DNA of 64,000 nt, taken from contig NZ_NTGB01000001.1 in assembly GCF_003072505.1 (NCBI RefSeq), positions 2,281,955-2,345,954 of the forward strand. The letters are read 5' to 3'. The position numbers and the translations under genes are program-made. This DNA comes from Polynucleobacter rarus. Lineage in GTDB: Bacteria > Pseudomonadota > Gammaproteobacteria > Burkholderiales > Burkholderiaceae. Shown piece by piece: positions 22,327 through 29,664 of the stretch (position 1 is its first letter; every line of letters begins with the position of its first letter). The notes beneath the pieces were generated by a model that was not told the DNA's origin, made no database searches, and saw only the letters and a list, made by a program, of their open reading frames with translations.

Positions 22327-22626
22327 ATGAGCGAAAGAAAAAAACGGGTTAGCCATACGTCTGATTTCAAAGCGAAAGTTGGGCTTGAGGCGATACGGTC
22401 TGATAAGACAATTAATGAGATTGCGCAGCTGTATGAGGTACATCCAGTCCAAGTTGCACAATGGAAAAAAGCCATCTTAGATCAGTGTAAAGTCATCTTT
22501 GAGGGTAAGCGTGGTCCAAAGCCTATCTCTGAGCACAGTGAGCCTGATCAGCTCTATAGCCAAATTGGCAAATTAAAGGTAGAACTGGATTGGCTTAAAA
22601 AAAAGTCCGGGATCAGCCTACCTTGA
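22327..22626 (+). CDS. IS3-family transposase OrfA
   Basis: A 99-residue helix-turn-helix DNA-binding protein: HTSDFKAKVGLEAIRSDKTI and AQLYEVHPVQVAQWKK form the HTH_Tnp-1 domain, followed by a leucine-zipper-like helix. ATG follows an AAAGGAAAG ribosome site. Near its 3' end is A8G (22597-22605), giving the slippery heptamer A-AAA-AAG at 22599-22605. A -1 shift there joins OrfA in frame to OrfB, as known for IS3 elements. Confidence 0.93.
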   Translation: MSERKKRVSHTSDFKAKVGLEAIRSDKTINEIAQLYEVHPVQVAQWKKAILDQCKVIFEGKRGPKPISEHSEPDQLYSQIGKLKVELDWLKKKSGISLP

Positions 22627-23549
22627 TCCGTATGTCATGGATTGGCAAAGTTCAAGGGGTCTCAGTGAGTCGCCAATGTGCCTTAGTTAGCGTTGCCCGA
22701 TCCAGTTTCCATGCTCAGCAAGTTCCAGCCTTGGGGGGTGAAGATGATCTGCGGATCAGTCAGCTGATTGATGAGCAGTACACTAGCCGACCATTTTTTG
22801 GTAGTCGACGGATGAAGACTTTTTTGAGGCGGCGTGGCGAGTCAATTGGGCGTAAAAGAGTACAACGATTGATGCGTTTGATGGGACTTGCTGGTATGTC
22901 CCCAGGACCAAATACGAGCAAACCACAGCCCGGTCATCGAATCTATCCCTATTTACTGCGAGGAGTCTTGGTGATCAGACCGAATCAAGTCTGGAGTACC
23001 GATATCACCTATATTCGATTGACTCAAGGATTTGTCTATTTGGTGGCAGTTATTGATTGGTACTCACGGCAGGTCCTCAGTTGGCGAATTAGCAATACGA
23101 TGGAGGCCAGTTTTTGTATCGCCTGCTTAGAGGATGCTCTCATCCGGCATGGCAAACCAGAAGTCTTCAATAGTGATCAAGGGGCTCAATTTACCAGCGA
23201 TGCTTTTACTTCTGTCCTCAAGCGGGAAGAAATTAGTATTAGTATGGACGGAAGAGGCCGAGTCTTTGACAATATTTTTGTCGAACGACTTTGGCGAAGT
23301 GTGAAATATGAGGACATTTATTTGCAAAGCTACTCGAATACGAAAGAGTTAAAGCTTGGATTAAAAAGATATTTTGATTTTTATAATGAAGAACGACCTC
23401 ACCAAGCATTATCCGATAGGACTCCTCAAGAAGTTTATGAATCAGGTCAAGGTGGGGGTGCTTTGATTCTTCAGAAATATCCTGTAGGATTGAAACAAGA
23501 AGTGGATTACGGGGCAACGCTGCACAGTTGCAATGCAGTAAAAGTATAG
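22623..23549 (+). CDS. IS3-family transposase OrfB (DDE integrase domain)
   Basis: A 308-residue catalytic subunit. HTH_21-like PFFGSRRMKTFLRRRGE lies near residue 60, then the rve domain with the DDE residues in WSTDITYIRL, VFNSDQGAQFTSD and FVERLWRSVKYEDIY. A TTG start at 22623 overlaps the OrfA stop, but the real product is more likely the OrfAB fusion made by -1 frameshifting at 22599-22605; the -1 frame is open from 22599 onwards. No inactivating change seen. Confidence 0.93.
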   Translation: MIRMSWIGKVQGVSVSRQCALVSVARSSFHAQQVPALGGEDDLRISQLIDEQYTSRPFFGSRRMKTFLRRRGESIGRKRVQRLMRLMGLAGMSPGPNTSKPQPGHRIYPYLLRGVLVIRPNQVWSTDITYIRLTQGFVYLVAVIDWYSRQVLSWRISNTMEASFCIACLEDALIRHGKPEVFNSDQGAQFTSDAFTSVLKREEISISMDGRGRVFDNIFVERLWRSVKYEDIYLQSYSNTKELKLGLKRYFDFYNEERPHQALSDRTPQEVYESGQGGGALILQKYPVGLKQEVDYGATLHSCNAVKV

Positions 23550-24783: not shown

Positions 24784-25116
24784 ATGAAGAAAATCGTTAC
24801 TGCTTTAATATTTTGTGCTTTTAGTTCTTATTCATTTGCTCAGTTAGAAGGGGCAGCAGCGGCTGGATCTGCAGGTGCAGGTGGTGGAGCGGCAGGTGCA
24901 GGTGCAGCAGCAGGAGGTGCTGCTGGTGCCGCTGGAGCTGGTGCCGCAGGCGCAGCGGCAGGTGCTGGTGCGGCGGCAGGTGGATTTGCAGCCGCTGCTG
25001 GTGCATTGGGAGTTTCTACTGCGGCTTTAGCCGTTGGTGCAACGGTTGCTGTAGCTGGAGCGGCGGCCGCAGCTGCTTCTGCAAACAATAACAACAATAC
25101 TACTGGTACTAAATAA
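24784..25116 (+). CDS. Exported Ala/Gly-rich small protein (YjbE/GfcA-like)
   Basis: A 110-residue secreted protein. ATG 24784 is chosen because AAAAGGA lies just upstream; an earlier TTG would put that site inside the gene. MKKIVTALIFCAFSSYSFA is a clear signal peptide with cleavage after Ala19. The mature part is almost only Ala and Gly in GAAGAGAA-like repeats, then a hydrophobic Ala/Val segment and an Asn/Thr tail. It is followed by a terminator and then yjbF- and yjbGH-like genes, which is the place of YjbE/GfcA in the E. coli yjbEFGH and gfcABCD operons; those are also small exported Ala/Gly/Thr-rich proteins. Homology is suggested by position and composition, not by alignment. Confidence 0.72.
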   Translation: MKKIVTALIFCAFSSYSFAQLEGAAAAGSAGAGGGAAGAGAAAGGAAGAAGAGAAGAAAGAGAAAGGFAAAAGALGVSTAALAVGATVAVAGAAAAAASANNNNNTTGTK

Positions 25117-25264: not shown

Positions 25265-26095
25265 ATGAATGAATCCCCTTTCCAACGTTATTTTTTAAAG
25301 CAAATTGATTTTCTTGTTCTTATTGGTTTCGCCACATTCTTTTTAGGGTTTCTGCAAGGCTGCTCTTCACAATCCGATGCAGCTTGGAAAACGATGCAAT
25401 TGGGGTTTAGGAATGAGGCAGCTCAAATTGAAAAAGCGCCTTTAAAAAATAATTTGACTTACTTTCGGGCAAATATAAATGGCTTTGACGTACTATTGGT
25501 GAAAGGTTACGTGGATTCTAATCCTAACGGCCCCATAGATGTTTGGTACAGTAGCGATCGATCTGTTCTGCGTATTCAACAGGGGCGATATTTAGGAAGT
25601 ATTGGATTTGATCAAAACTGGTATGAGGTTTCTCGTAGCAATGCCCCAAGTTTTGACTTCCTTTTAAATACTGAAATGAGCTCTTCCTCTAAAACATCTA
25701 CTTCTGCGATCAGAAACACTAAGAAATACTTTTCTTCACAATCCTATGTTGTAATGCCTAGTTATCAAGTAATGCGTGAGGAGCGTATTTCTTCAGTTGT
25801 ATTCGCCTTTAATCCCCCCTCTAACCTAAGCCTTACGGCACCTTTAACTTCAGTCTTAGCAACTCCGTCAATCCCTGAAACGATCCCTAGCTCTTTTAAA
25901 AAATATCTGCTGAATAAAGAATTGATTTGGGTATCAGAGACACCGCAACCGAATGATATTTTTAAGAAAAAAGGTGCTAGTTTTGCTTGGTATGGTTTTG
26001 TAAAAAGTAACGCTGGCTTTACGCAAGTAATCGGGCAACAGTGTTTATCTAAAGAGTTTTGTATCACTTGGACGCCTTGGCCGGTTCAACCATGA
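25265..26095 (+). CDS. yjbF: YjbF/GfcB family capsule lipoprotein
   Basis: A 276-residue outer-membrane-type lipoprotein. The N-terminus has a hydrophobic run and lipobox FLQGCSS with Cys33 as the likely lipidated residue, a rather late position. After it come AAWKTMQLGF and VWYSSDRSVLRIQQGRYLGSIG, matching the YjbF/GfcB pattern of a lipoprotein needed for group 4 capsule or Yjb exopolysaccharide. Its TGA overlaps the next gene's ATG (ATGA at 26092-26095), so the two are coupled. Exact biochemical role is unknown in the family. Confidence 0.85.
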   Translation: MNESPFQRYFLKQIDFLVLIGFATFFLGFLQGCSSQSDAAWKTMQLGFRNEAAQIEKAPLKNNLTYFRANINGFDVLLVKGYVDSNPNGPIDVWYSSDRSVLRIQQGRYLGSIGFDQNWYEVSRSNAPSFDFLLNTEMSSSSKTSTSAIRNTKKYFSSQSYVVMPSYQVMREERISSVVFAFNPPSNLSLTAPLTSVLATPSIPETIPSSFKKYLLNKELIWVSETPQPNDIFKKKGASFAWYGFVKSNAGFTQVIGQQCLSKEFCITWTPWPVQP

Positions 26096-29000
26096 AATCT
26101 CGTCTACACAACTCTTCCCAGAAAGTCCTTTCAGAAAAGGATTTCTCATTAAAAGCTATTTCTGTTAAAACTTTCTTAGTAAAAGCTAACTTAATAAATA
26201 GCTACCCTACGAAATCTGGCTTGATTGATTCCAAGTCTGTTGTTTGGGTATCGTTCTGCTCTGTTTTTTGTATTTCTCTATCCATGCTACCCACCTCTGG
26301 ATTTGCCCAAGAGAAGACTAGCGATTTAACTCTCAAGAGCGCTCAACGCTTAAGTACCGTTATTGGCTCTGAAAATGCGACGGCTCTACCTCAAAATCTT
26401 CCAAATCCTAATACAGCTTCTCAAAATACTACCAATCAAGTGGTTAGCCTACAAGGGATGATGTGGAATACTCCCAGTGAAATTGCTGCCCAACAAAAAC
26501 AAAAAGATCATTTACTCCGTTATTTATCAAGTTTACAAAAGTCTTCTTCTAAAGAATTGAATAGCTCATCTCAAGCGAATAATCCATCTAGTCTTAGTTC
26601 TGTGAAAACCTCGGCTATCGATACTTTAAGTGGCTTGATTCAAAGCCTACCAGTTACTGGCAGAGTTTTATTACCCGCTACAGATCCGCGTTGGTTAGAG
26701 ACGCATCCTCAGTTAGATCCGATTATCAGCTCGCAAGATAGCTTAAAGAATCCTGAGAGAAAAAATACCGTAACTCTGATACAAGGAGACGGTCGGGTTT
26801 GTGTGATTCCTTTTAAACGTAGTGTGTATGCCAAGCACTATGCAAAGCTTTGCGCCAATACGAATTCTATTTCTGATTGGGCGTGGGTGATTCAGGCAGA
26901 TGGAGTCATTCAAAAAGTAAGTCTTTCTACTTGGAACGCAGGTACCCAAAACTATCCTGCAGCTGGCAGTTGGATTTGGGTGCCTAAATCTCCTAAAGGG
27001 ATTGATCAAATTACCCAGCAACTGCCCTGGAACACCTATGGATCAGAGAAGGGGTATTTTTCAGAAGCATTTTCTGAAGAGTTTGCGGTGTTTTTAGCTA
27101 CTCAAGGACCTTCAGATCAAGTAGCTCTGTCTGAATTTCTTAAGGCTGACCGTACCTTTGTTGAAGATATCGTATTTGACCTTAAGCTAGATCAAAGTGA
27201 GAAATATCAGCCAAAAGATTCTGCATTGATTGCCAGCGATTGGGGAAGTATTGGCTTATTACAAACTCCTACATCTCGGATGATGCCTGCTGGTAGTGCT
27301 TTGTTTAGTTATTCTCACATTACGCCGTATTCTCATTACAACTTTGTCTTACAACCCTTACCTTGGTTAGAAACTTCTTTCCGTTATTCCTCAGATACAA
27401 ATAATGCCTATGGTTCCTATGAGTTATCTGGTAATCAGTCCTACGTTGATAAAAGTATTGATCTGAAAATTCGTCTTTTACAAGAAACCGCAACTTTTCC
27501 TGATGTTGCTGTTGGGTTGCGTGATTTAACCGGAACGGGTTTATTCTCAGGTGAATATGTGGTCGCGAATAAGCGCTTTGGTGATTTTGATTTTAGTGCT
27601 GGCCTTGCTTGGGGTTATTTGGGTAATCGGGGGAATGTTAAGAATCCATTTTCCCTCTTTGGCTCAAGCTTTAGTTCACGCCCTACCGCAGATGTTGGAT
27701 CGGGAGGAAACTTCTCCTTTGGCACCTATTTTCATGGGCAAACGGCTTTATTTGGCGGGGTTCAGTATCAAACCTCCATCCCTAATCTGAGTTTAAAACT
27801 AGAGCTGGATGGGAATAATTATCAGACTGAGCCTTTTTCAACGACGCTTGAACAACGCAGTCCGATTAACTTTGGGGCAGTCTATCGTTGGAATAATGCC
27901 AATTTAACGGTTGGGGTAGAGCGTGGTAATACAGCGATGATTTCTATATCGGTTTTCGATAACTTATCTAAACTTTCTGTGCCGAAGTTAATGGAAGCAC
28001 CAGCAATTCCTATTTCTTATAAGTCTATTAGTCCACCAACGAATGAGAGGATCAATGTTCCGAGTATTGATCCTTGGCAACCCTCAGCTAATTCTGCTAA
28101 TGATGGTTTGGTGATGAATAGCCTAGCTAATCAACGTTTAATTAAAGTAGATCAATCAAAGATAGATCAAAATGCGGCCAATCTTAATCAGCCTTCTGAA
28201 ATTAGCGCTTTGCAGAATAATGGCAAAGAGGTAAGAAGTCTCTCAACTTTGAGTAGCACTCTTATAAAAACTGAAGAGTCCCCTTCTATTTTGACGAATG
28301 GGTCAAATGTCACTTTGGTTAATAAGAAGTTAGATATTGTAAAAACATCGAATGATATTCGTGAACAAAGTGGTTGGCATTTAGTGCGTATTGAGCAGAA
28401 GAATAAACGTTGGATGGTAACGCTAGATGAAGTAACTGGGGTTCATCTTAAAGAAAGAATCAATCGGGTGATTGCAGTTTTACATCGAGATGCACCGCAA
28501 GATGTGACTCAATTTGTGATTCAGTATCAACAACGACAATTACCTTTAATTAAGCAATCATACAATCGTCAAGCTTGGATGATGAAGAACATTTCTTTAT
28601 TAGGGCCAACGAAGACAGTACTAGCTGAGGGGCTTGTATCGGAATATCCTTCCGAAACTCTCTTGTCTTCTTCTGCTGGTTCATCCTTTGTTAATTCTAC
28701 TTTGGGTACTTCTAATTTGGTTAATCCGACTTCAACTACCCAGGCAGTAGTTGCGCCTTCTTCCACCAATTCCACTAGCATTGCCGACACAAATACTGGT
28801 GATGATTATTTAATAAATGGTCCTAAAGCTCAACGATTAACTGGTGGTTTTGATGTTGGTTACCAGCAGACGATTGGTGGGCCTAATGGTTATTTATTTG
28901 CTTTAAGTGCTTTAGGTACTGCTGAATTACTTTTATGGGATGGGGCCTGGATTAAAGGTATTACAAGTCTGCGTGTATTAGATAACTACGATAAATTTAC

Positions 29001-29664
29001 CTACGATGCGCCTAGTAATTTACCAAGGGTGCGTACTTACATGCGAGAGTATTTAACTTCTAATCGTTTAACAATTCCAACATTACAAGCTACTCAGGTT
29101 GCTAAAGTTGGAGATAGTCATTATTTCAGTGCTTATGGCGGGATGCTGGAGATGATGTATGGTGGTGTTGGCGGTGAGTGGTTATATCGTCCGTTGAATA
29201 GCTCTTTAGCTGTAGGGGTTGATGTGAATCAAGTGCGTCAACGAGACTTTGATCAACGCTTTAACTTTTTAGATTATCAAGTTACAACAGGGCATATTAC
29301 TGCTTATTGGCAAACAGGTTGGGAAGATGTTTTAGCGAAGCTTAGTTACGGTCAGTATTTAGCTGGGGACCGTGGATACACCGTGGATGTTTCGAAAGCA
29401 TTTTCGAATGGTGTAAAGATGGGCGCTTACTTTACGAGAACAAATGTCTCAGCAGAACAATTTGGAGAGGGAAGTTTTGACAAGGGGATTTATGTTTCAA
29501 TCCCATTCGATGCATTCTTTACGAAGTACAGTAATGATACTGCAACGATTTTATGGAATCCGCTGGTTAGGGATGGTGGGGCTAAACTGAATCGGATGTA
29601 TCAGTTATATAACATGACTGGTATGAGGGATGAGCGGATTTTACGATTTGGGCTAGAGAGGTAG
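26092..29664 (+). CDS. YjbG-YjbH (GfcC-GfcD) fusion, capsule export outer-membrane protein
   Basis: A 1190-residue exported protein. ATG 26092 forms an ATGA overlap with yjbF and is preferred to an upstream TTG at 26059. The signal peptide is unusual: about 48 polar residues, then a hydrophobic core and a cut after SGFA at residue 72. Residues about 185-300 (LPVTGRVLLPATDPRWLE to SWIWVPK) resemble YjbG/GfcC, and from about 382 (DWGSIGLLQTPTSRMMPAG) to the end is a long YjbH/GfcD beta-barrel-like region. The Ser/Asn-rich segment 650-720 looks like a linker, and a second barrel-like part follows. The predicted role is secretion or assembly of polysaccharide at the outer membrane with Wza. E. 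coli encodes G and H separately. Confidence 0.82.
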   Translation: MKSRLHNSSQKVLSEKDFSLKAISVKTFLVKANLINSYPTKSGLIDSKSVVWVSFCSVFCISLSMLPTSGFAQEKTSDLTLKSAQRLSTVIGSENATALPQNLPNPNTASQNTTNQVVSLQGMMWNTPSEIAAQQKQKDHLLRYLSSLQKSSSKELNSSSQANNPSSLSSVKTSAIDTLSGLIQSLPVTGRVLLPATDPRWLETHPQLDPIISSQDSLKNPERKNTVTLIQGDGRVCVIPFKRSVYAKHYAKLCANTNSISDWAWVIQADGVIQKVSLSTWNAGTQNYPAAGSWIWVPKSPKGIDQITQQLPWNTYGSEKGYFSEAFSEEFAVFLATQGPSDQVALSEFLKADRTFVEDIVFDLKLDQSEKYQPKDSALIASDWGSIGLLQTPTSRMMPAGSALFSYSHITPYSHYNFVLQPLPWLETSFRYSSDTNNAYGSYELSGNQSYVDKSIDLKIRLLQETATFPDVAVGLRDLTGTGLFSGEYVVANKRFGDFDFSAGLAWGYLGNRGNVKNPFSLFGSSFSSRPTADVGSGGNFSFGTYFHGQTALFGGVQYQTSIPNLSLKLELDGNNYQTEPFSTTLEQRSPINFGAVYRWNNANLTVGVERGNTAMISISVFDNLSKLSVPKLMEAPAIPISYKSISPPTNERINVPSIDPWQPSANSANDGLVMNSLANQRLIKVDQSKIDQNAANLNQPSEISALQNNGKEVRSLSTLSSTLIKTEESPSILTNGSNVTLVNKKLDIVKTSNDIREQSGWHLVRIEQKNKRWMVTLDEVTGVHLKERINRVIAVLHRDAPQDVTQFVIQYQQRQLPLIKQSYNRQAWMMKNISLLGPTKTVLAEGLVSEYPSETLLSSSAGSSFVNSTLGTSNLVNPTSTTQAVVAPSSTNSTSIADTNTGDDYLINGPKAQRLTGGFDVGYQQTIGGPNGYLFALSALGTAELLLWDGAWIKGITSLRVLDNYDKFTYDAPSNLPRVRTYMREYLTSNRLTIPTLQATQVAKVGDSHYFSAYGGMLEMMYGGVGGEWLYRPLNSSLAVGVDVNQVRQRDFDQRFNFLDYQVTTGHITAYWQTGWEDVLAKLSYGQYLAGDRGYTVDVSKAFSNGVKMGAYFTRTNVSAEQFGEGSFDKGIYVSIPFDAFFTKYSNDTATILWNPLVRDGGAKLNRMYQLYNMTGMRDERILRFGLER

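Follow-up and report, generated by a model that had tools for sequence, protein, structure and literature searches.

The fused gene and its operon

The window, i.e. the whole 64,000-nucleotide stretch of Polynucleobacter rarus DNA analysed here, contains a polysaccharide locus that encodes Wzc-, Wza- and Wzb-like proteins, an initiating-type sugar transferase, a flippase-like protein and an EpsG-family protein. The Wza-like OPX protein carries Poly_export and SLBB domains, and a domain scan found no GfcC match in it. In this locus, a yjbE-like and a yjbF-like gene lie directly upstream of a single open frame, which begins with the ATG at 26092, ends with the stop codon at 29662-29664 and encodes 1190 amino acids (Table 1). 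The product of this frame is very probably a single-chain GfcC-YjbH (GfcC-GfcD) protein, encoded by an export operon of the yjbEFGH type in which the last two genes have been merged.

Table 1. Features of the operon in the window, and loci of relatives referred to in the text
Feature	Location	Strand	Basis
yjbE-like gene	24784..25116	+	small Gly/Ala-rich ORF with Asn/Thr/Gly tail; signal peptide by eye
yjbF/gfcB lipoprotein gene	25265..26095	+	YjbF/GfcB HMM; ATGA overlap with fused gene
fused yjbG-yjbH gene	26092..29664	+	ORF, Pfam, GfcC HMM; 1190 aa
variable leader with signal peptide, residues 1-73	26092..26310	+	signal peptide by eye only
GfcC module, about residues 74-348	26311..27135	+	HMM 74-311; 3P42 by profile and by fold 85-348
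cysteine pair C237 and C254 of the GfcC module	26800..26853	+	alignment of fused and separate GfcC rows
stretch from GfcC HMM match to YjbH, residues 312-381	27025..27234	+	alignment of relatives; overlaps helix 325-336
YjbH N-terminal barrel region, residues 382-632	27235..27987	+	Pfam YjbH; E. coli YjbH alignment
variable linker 1, residues 633-745	27988..28326	+	low identity, many gaps
YjbH middle domain, residues 746-839	28327..28608	+	alignment of relatives; periplasmic by homology
variable linker 2, residues 840-915	28609..28836	+	low identity, many gaps
YjbH C-terminal barrel region, residues 916-1190	28837..29661	+	Pfam YjbH; E. coli YjbH alignment
nearest split group	L079, L081, L082, L039, L041, L087, L088 (families f210 and f63)		YjbH tree
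PAP2-bearing YjbH protein	L018:232-4626	-	Pfam / PAP2 HMM
PAP2-bearing YjbH protein	L014:391-4665	+	Pfam / PAP2 HMM
further PAP2-bearing YjbH proteins	L013, L019, L035, L027, L025, L030		Pfam / PAP2 HMM
further PAP2-bearing YjbH proteins	L137, L138, L141, L143-L149		PAP2 HMM
long proteins with second middle-domain match	L007-L010, L014, L016-L018, L020, L021, L024, L029

The initial annotation had described an uninterrupted frame with ATGA coupling to yjbF, in which GfcC-like sequence at residues 185-300 and YjbH-like sequence from about residue 382 are joined, while the two proteins are separate in E. coli. The frame is indeed unbroken, its start codon shares the ATGA overlap with the stop codon of the yjbF-like gene, and in E. 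coli K-12, in contrast to the window, both yjbG/yjbH and gfcC/gfcD are separate genes. The YjbH part was also correctly placed: Pfam YjbH (PF06082) matches residues 382-1176 above the cut-off (E 2.2e-211, profile positions 3-656 of 658), with 46.6% identity between residues 382-632 and E. coli YjbH 32-278, and 48.5% between residues 916-1190 and E. coli YjbH 433-693. Pfam Caps_syn_GfcC_C (PF06251) matches residues 263-311 with 27.5 bits against a cut-off of 20, and a genome-wide search of P. rarus returned a single GfcC_C match (27.8 bits), which lies inside the fused frame, with no second one elsewhere in the genome. In NCBIfam, the fused protein had a single match, at chance level, and YjbF had no match.

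The yjbF-like gene is matched by a YjbF/GfcB HMM with E 2e-44 (some seeds of this HMM come from fused loci, none from the window), and by Pfam YjbF with 23.2 bits, under the cut-off of 25.9. Of 22 fused loci, 21 have a yjbF gene upstream and one starts at a contig end. The yjbE-like gene was recognized by composition and layout only, the layout of E. coli YjbE and GfcA being similar to that of the small ORFs of fused loci. By a composition filter and inspection by eye, applied without a chance control, 18 of 19 fused loci have a small Gly/Ala/Ser/Thr-rich ORF directly before yjbF, and the filter found none in the two split loci examined. Six of these 18 YjbE-like ORFs end with TTGT followed by R, K or Q. 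The YjbE-like protein of the window is a possible matrix protein or substrate of a FapF-like barrel.

The GfcC module and the junction

To delimit the GfcC part we used an HMM built from separate proteins only, i.e. 31 separate GfcC ORFs shorter than 350 aa together with E. coli GfcC and YjbG. It matches residues 74-311 (E 9.6e-22, HMM positions 26-236 of 250), the first 25 positions being unmatched in the window protein; GfcC is thus detected by this profile as well as by Pfam. A profile of 29 fused proteins, searched against the PDB, retrieved E. coli GfcC (3P42, E 1.7e-15, chain 27-224 of 236), and the sole other row up to E 1 was a PAP2-family protein with E 0.8. A model of residues 72-385 has a moderate mean pLDDT of 60.7, with the last 39 residues and some other stretches below 50, and four 3P42 chains are its best Foldseek matches (E down to 5.6e-8). 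VIA aligned 196 residues of this model with 3p42_A (Z 14.0, rmsd 5.2), superposing model residues 14-277, i.e. about residues 85-348 of the window protein, on chain 42-256, and its runner-up was an OPX protein with Z 4.3. The whole GfcC fold, comprising two beta-grasp domains and a C-terminal helix, is therefore recognizable in a model of moderate confidence. Since the range aligned with 3P42 reaches the helix at residues 325-336, which occupies the position of the GfcC C-terminal helix, this helix has probably been kept and appears in the model to run into the junction. The module is a nearly complete GfcC of about residues 74-348, so that the extent of residues 185-300 given in the initial annotation was right as to family and too short; unlike the stand-alone GfcC and YjbG of E. 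coli, it forms part of one chain with YjbH.

The expectation that the fusion would provide a structural handle did not hold for the predicted structure: an AlphaFold model of the whole chain, based on a five-sequence alignment (pLDDT 37.8, pTM 0.30), is too poor for any docking of GfcC to the barrels, and the barrels and their docking were taken from homology instead. Within this low-confidence model the YjbH middle domain is a better-predicted stretch, and 3P42 is still the best Foldseek match (E 1.1e-4). Porin matches ranked below it in the same search were set aside.

We compared the regions of the protein with those of its two closest relatives (L034 and L033) and of a more distant one (L099). 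Over residues 312-381 the identity is 83-86% to L034 and L033 (dN 0.09-0.10, dS about 2), and 41% to L099, with 7 gapped positions. The GfcC module is 69-70% identical to the two close relatives, as against 84-88% for the barrels, and the middle domain is 77% identical to either of them. Relative to L034 and L033, dN/dS is low in both modules and in the junction (about 0.13-0.16 for the GfcC module, which has 0.26 relative to L099), the ratios being rough because dS is near saturation, and several dS values for L099 not being computable. Identity to the three relatives is 20-24% in the leader, 33-43% in linker 1 and 23-47% in linker 2, both linkers with many gaps; for L034 and L033 only, the two linkers flanking the middle domain show 34-47% identity, again with many gaps. 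Judged by these alignments, the join between GfcC and YjbH is not accidental and its junction is conserved in close relatives.

Residues G190, R191, C237 and C254 are invariant across all 29 aligned fused proteins. The cysteine pair is present in 32 of 32 fused rows (30 of them distinct) versus 7 of 37 rows of separate GfcC, which all come from the split group nearest to the fused clade; E. coli GfcC and YjbG lack a pair of this type. C237 and C254 may form a disulfide.

Distribution and origin of the fusion, and a C-terminal PAP2 domain in relatives

Since a contig profile scan gave four loci, the breadth of the distribution was taken from whole-genome surveys, whose sets overlap and include the window's own genome. 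For YjbH (PF06082), the order survey gave 54 positive genomes out of 399, the class survey 28 out of 369, the phylum survey 60 out of 398 and the family survey 13 out of 200. With the window protein as the query, matches were found in 13 of 186 genomes of the genus, so the fused system is accessory. Just upstream of the operon, at 22327-23549, there is an IS-like pair comprising a small ORF and an integrase-core transposase (the latter scanned), a hint of mobility that fits this sparse occurrence.

The locus-level analysis covered the better survey matches, with loci reaching about 1.5 kb beyond the match. Among 30 loci of the order, including the window, GfcC lies inside the YjbH frame in 18; two have a separate GfcC gene (L003 and L004), three are cut by a contig end, and seven encode divergent YjbH proteins for which no GfcC was found. 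Of the 12 genomes of the genus that have a locus, 11 show the fused form and one a truncated gene (L102); a thirteenth contains fragments only. The family survey added five strong new loci, all fused, and weaker YjbH-like matches that are unfused. Outside the order, none of 55 loci is fused and 33 have a separate GfcC ORF (E <1e-8); two of these 55 duplicate genes already counted among the others, contig ends truncate a few, and in four (L061-L063 and L065) YjbH is too divergent for the phmmer search. A further candidate from outside the order, a 1002-residue YjbH frame in genome G1109, was rejected as a fusion, as the frame has no GfcC, which brings the count outside Burkholderiales to 0 of 56 sampled loci. 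Beside or near YjbH-family genes in L138, L144, L136, L113, L115, L117 and L124 we also observed separate GfcC-matching proteins of 632-898 residues, which may be OPX proteins that include a GfcC domain.

A tree of 87 YjbH regions unites the 29 fused proteins (including the window's) and the truncated L102 in one clade of Burkholderiales with SH-aLRT 100, which was again fully supported in a more careful tree of 36 rows. The truncated locus (L102/L121, genome G1229) has neither GfcC nor yjbF and is missing the beginning of the first barrel; its frame begins at about residue 472 of its relative, preceded by unrelated DNA. We rejected it as a reversion to split genes and regard it as truncated, rearranged or mis-assembled. 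For the proteins sampled, the tree supports a fusion that arose once, in Burkholderiales. Seven split loci join the fused clade with support 91, under the tool's mark of 95; they possess separate yjbFGH genes and the same cysteine pair, and the fused form would most simply have arisen from this cysteine-bearing split lineage.

Some fused relatives are extended by 250-450 residues after YjbH. Of the 29 fused proteins of the tree, 13 carry a C-terminal PAP2 domain according to a PAP2 HMM built from 19 seeds taken from fused PAP2 domains, most of the matching proteins being seeds themselves, and the HMM also detects it in three further long-type proteins whose start is cut off. Pfam PAP2 (PF01569) scored above its cut-off in all eight long proteins scanned, five fused and three from the divergent group; in one of the five (L019), GfcC_C scores 18.2 against the cut-off of 20 and the GfcC HMM matches. 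The divergent Burkholderiales YjbH group, with frames without GfcC, has PAP2 in 6 of 7 first loci and 10 of 13 further ones. Alignment of 22 PAP2 domains shows no variation at the motif Lys, Arg, Ser, second Arg, second His and Asp; the first His is present in 21 domains and the Pro in 20, and the final motif has a variable Ser. As a PDB sequence search with the L018 extension gave chance matches only, the PAP2 assignment rests on Pfam and the motif residues. In long proteins from 12 genomes of the order, the YjbH middle domain (profile about 250-390) is matched a second time, at a position between the C-terminal barrel and PAP2. On the best tree, PAP2 requires four gains or losses, two of them forced by well-supported branches, and the tree of the PAP2 domains themselves is too weak to tell a single gain from several. 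The window protein has no PAP2 domain and the PAP2 HMM detected no fused-type PAP2 gene within the window; in 24 neighbourhoods of fused genes and the window no separate PAP2 gene was found, save a weak, distant ORF in L120 (E 5.6e-4).

A few searches of open-access literature found no YjbH-PAP2 fusion and no proposal of an exporter combining the two (the YjbH of Staphylococcus is an unrelated protein). One report mentions becM, encoding a PAP2 superfamily protein, in a Burkholderia exopolysaccharide cluster (PMC5507470), which may count against calling the fusion undescribed.

Functional interpretation

A GfcC-GfcD fusion is already in print and the window protein is a further example. In Larson et al. 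2021 (PMC8592465), OtnG of B. thailandensis (995 aa) is likened to a GfcC-GfcD fusion and taken as a sign of coupled function; among open-access papers we found no other on OtnG in Burkholderia. Going by that description, both proteins have a GfcC-like N-terminus and a GfcD-like C-terminus in one chain and come from Burkholderiales, and five fused loci of the window's family (L125-L129, frames of 984-1114 aa) fall in the size range of OtnG, whereas the window protein is longer, with its long variable leader and the two variable linkers around the middle domain. The operon resembles yjbEFGH/gfcABCD of E. coli in gene order, families, overlapping genes and the small YjbE/GfcA gene in the first position. 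A GfcC module joined to another export component is also known from class 2 OPX proteins of the KpsD type, in which, according to PMC9603273, GfcC domains are found inside a Wza-like OPX protein, in contrast to the barrel protein that is its partner here; the same source describes the double barrel of the YjbH/GfcD family.

That the fusion is real and its junction conserved agrees with the initial annotation, and the fixed complex of GfcC and YjbH that it proposed we infer from the fusion. Such a complex is plausible since E. coli GfcB, GfcC and GfcD interact: in PMC8592465, biolayer interferometry on GfcD gives a weak KD of 256.8 uM for GfcC alone, 14.2 uM for GfcB alone and 9.1 uM for GfcBC. 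By analogy we propose a joint mechanism, to which we give nearly, but not quite, an even chance. The YjbH part would be inserted in the outer membrane as two barrels, with the GfcC module held below them on a short tether, where it would recruit the YjbF lipoprotein, as GfcB and GfcC do for GfcD in E. coli. Together, the GfcC module and YjbF may guide the polysaccharide, probably still lipid-anchored, to the C-terminal barrel, which would release it through the lateral gate that has been proposed, in PMC11494523, for the release of lipid-anchored polysaccharide by GfcD. In place of the translational coupling seen in split operons, the fusion would impose a fixed 1:1 ratio, and it would raise the local concentration of a weak partner.

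Other readings would give the polysaccharide or the GfcC module a lesser role. The machine might mainly export the YjbE-like protein, as an amyloid- or silk-like matrix, through a FapF-like N-terminal barrel, the polysaccharide being a partner or missing altogether. The regular presence of a YjbE-like ORF just upstream of fused genes fits this idea, as does the likeness of the N-terminal barrel to FapF noted in PMC9603273, which also raises amyloid secretion; we nevertheless consider it unlikely, as Wza-, Wzc- and Wzb-like genes mark the surroundings of the operon as a polysaccharide locus, and the composition filter behind the ORF count lacked a chance control and gave no hit in either of the two split loci. 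Somewhat less likely still is a GfcC module that has kept its fold as a relic or spacer, serving the barrel as a stalk or plug in the periplasm and devoid of GfcC function: its lower conservation relative to the barrels and its unmatched start would be accounted for, but the low dN/dS, the four invariant residues and the retention of the YjbF partner gene beside the fused gene speak for a functional module. An error of sequencing or assembly, or a frame that reads through by chance, might be brought to mind by the loss of the N-terminal part in L102, but can practically be dismissed: the junction is conserved, and GfcC and YjbH share one frame in 28 relatives of the tree, which represent several families and assemblies, and in five more from the family survey.

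The fused protein of Burkholderiales could form the central part of a one-chain machine that exports lipid-phosphate-linked glycans, with GfcC tethered at one end of the two-barrel YjbH and, in the 13 PAP2-bearing fused proteins, PAP2 at the other; on the domain content we regard this as a speculative suggestion, with the balance clearly against it. The triple fusion would then remove the (pyro)phosphate-lipid, or dephosphorylate the anchor, at the outer membrane during release, and the window protein would be a phosphatase-free form of such a glycan exporter. By their predicted domains, the PAP2 fusions fit a phosphate-lipid-linked substrate.

The outer-membrane family GfcD/YjbH is widespread, and its function is unproven. 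In one lineage of it the pairing of GfcC with YjbH has been fixed and kept, and the natural fusion offers as one polypeptide for structural work what in the split form is a weakly binding complex. The PAP2 triple fusions, if the enzyme is active, would hint, at the level of domains, at the chemistry of the substrate, in line with the lipid-anchored route proposed for GfcD.
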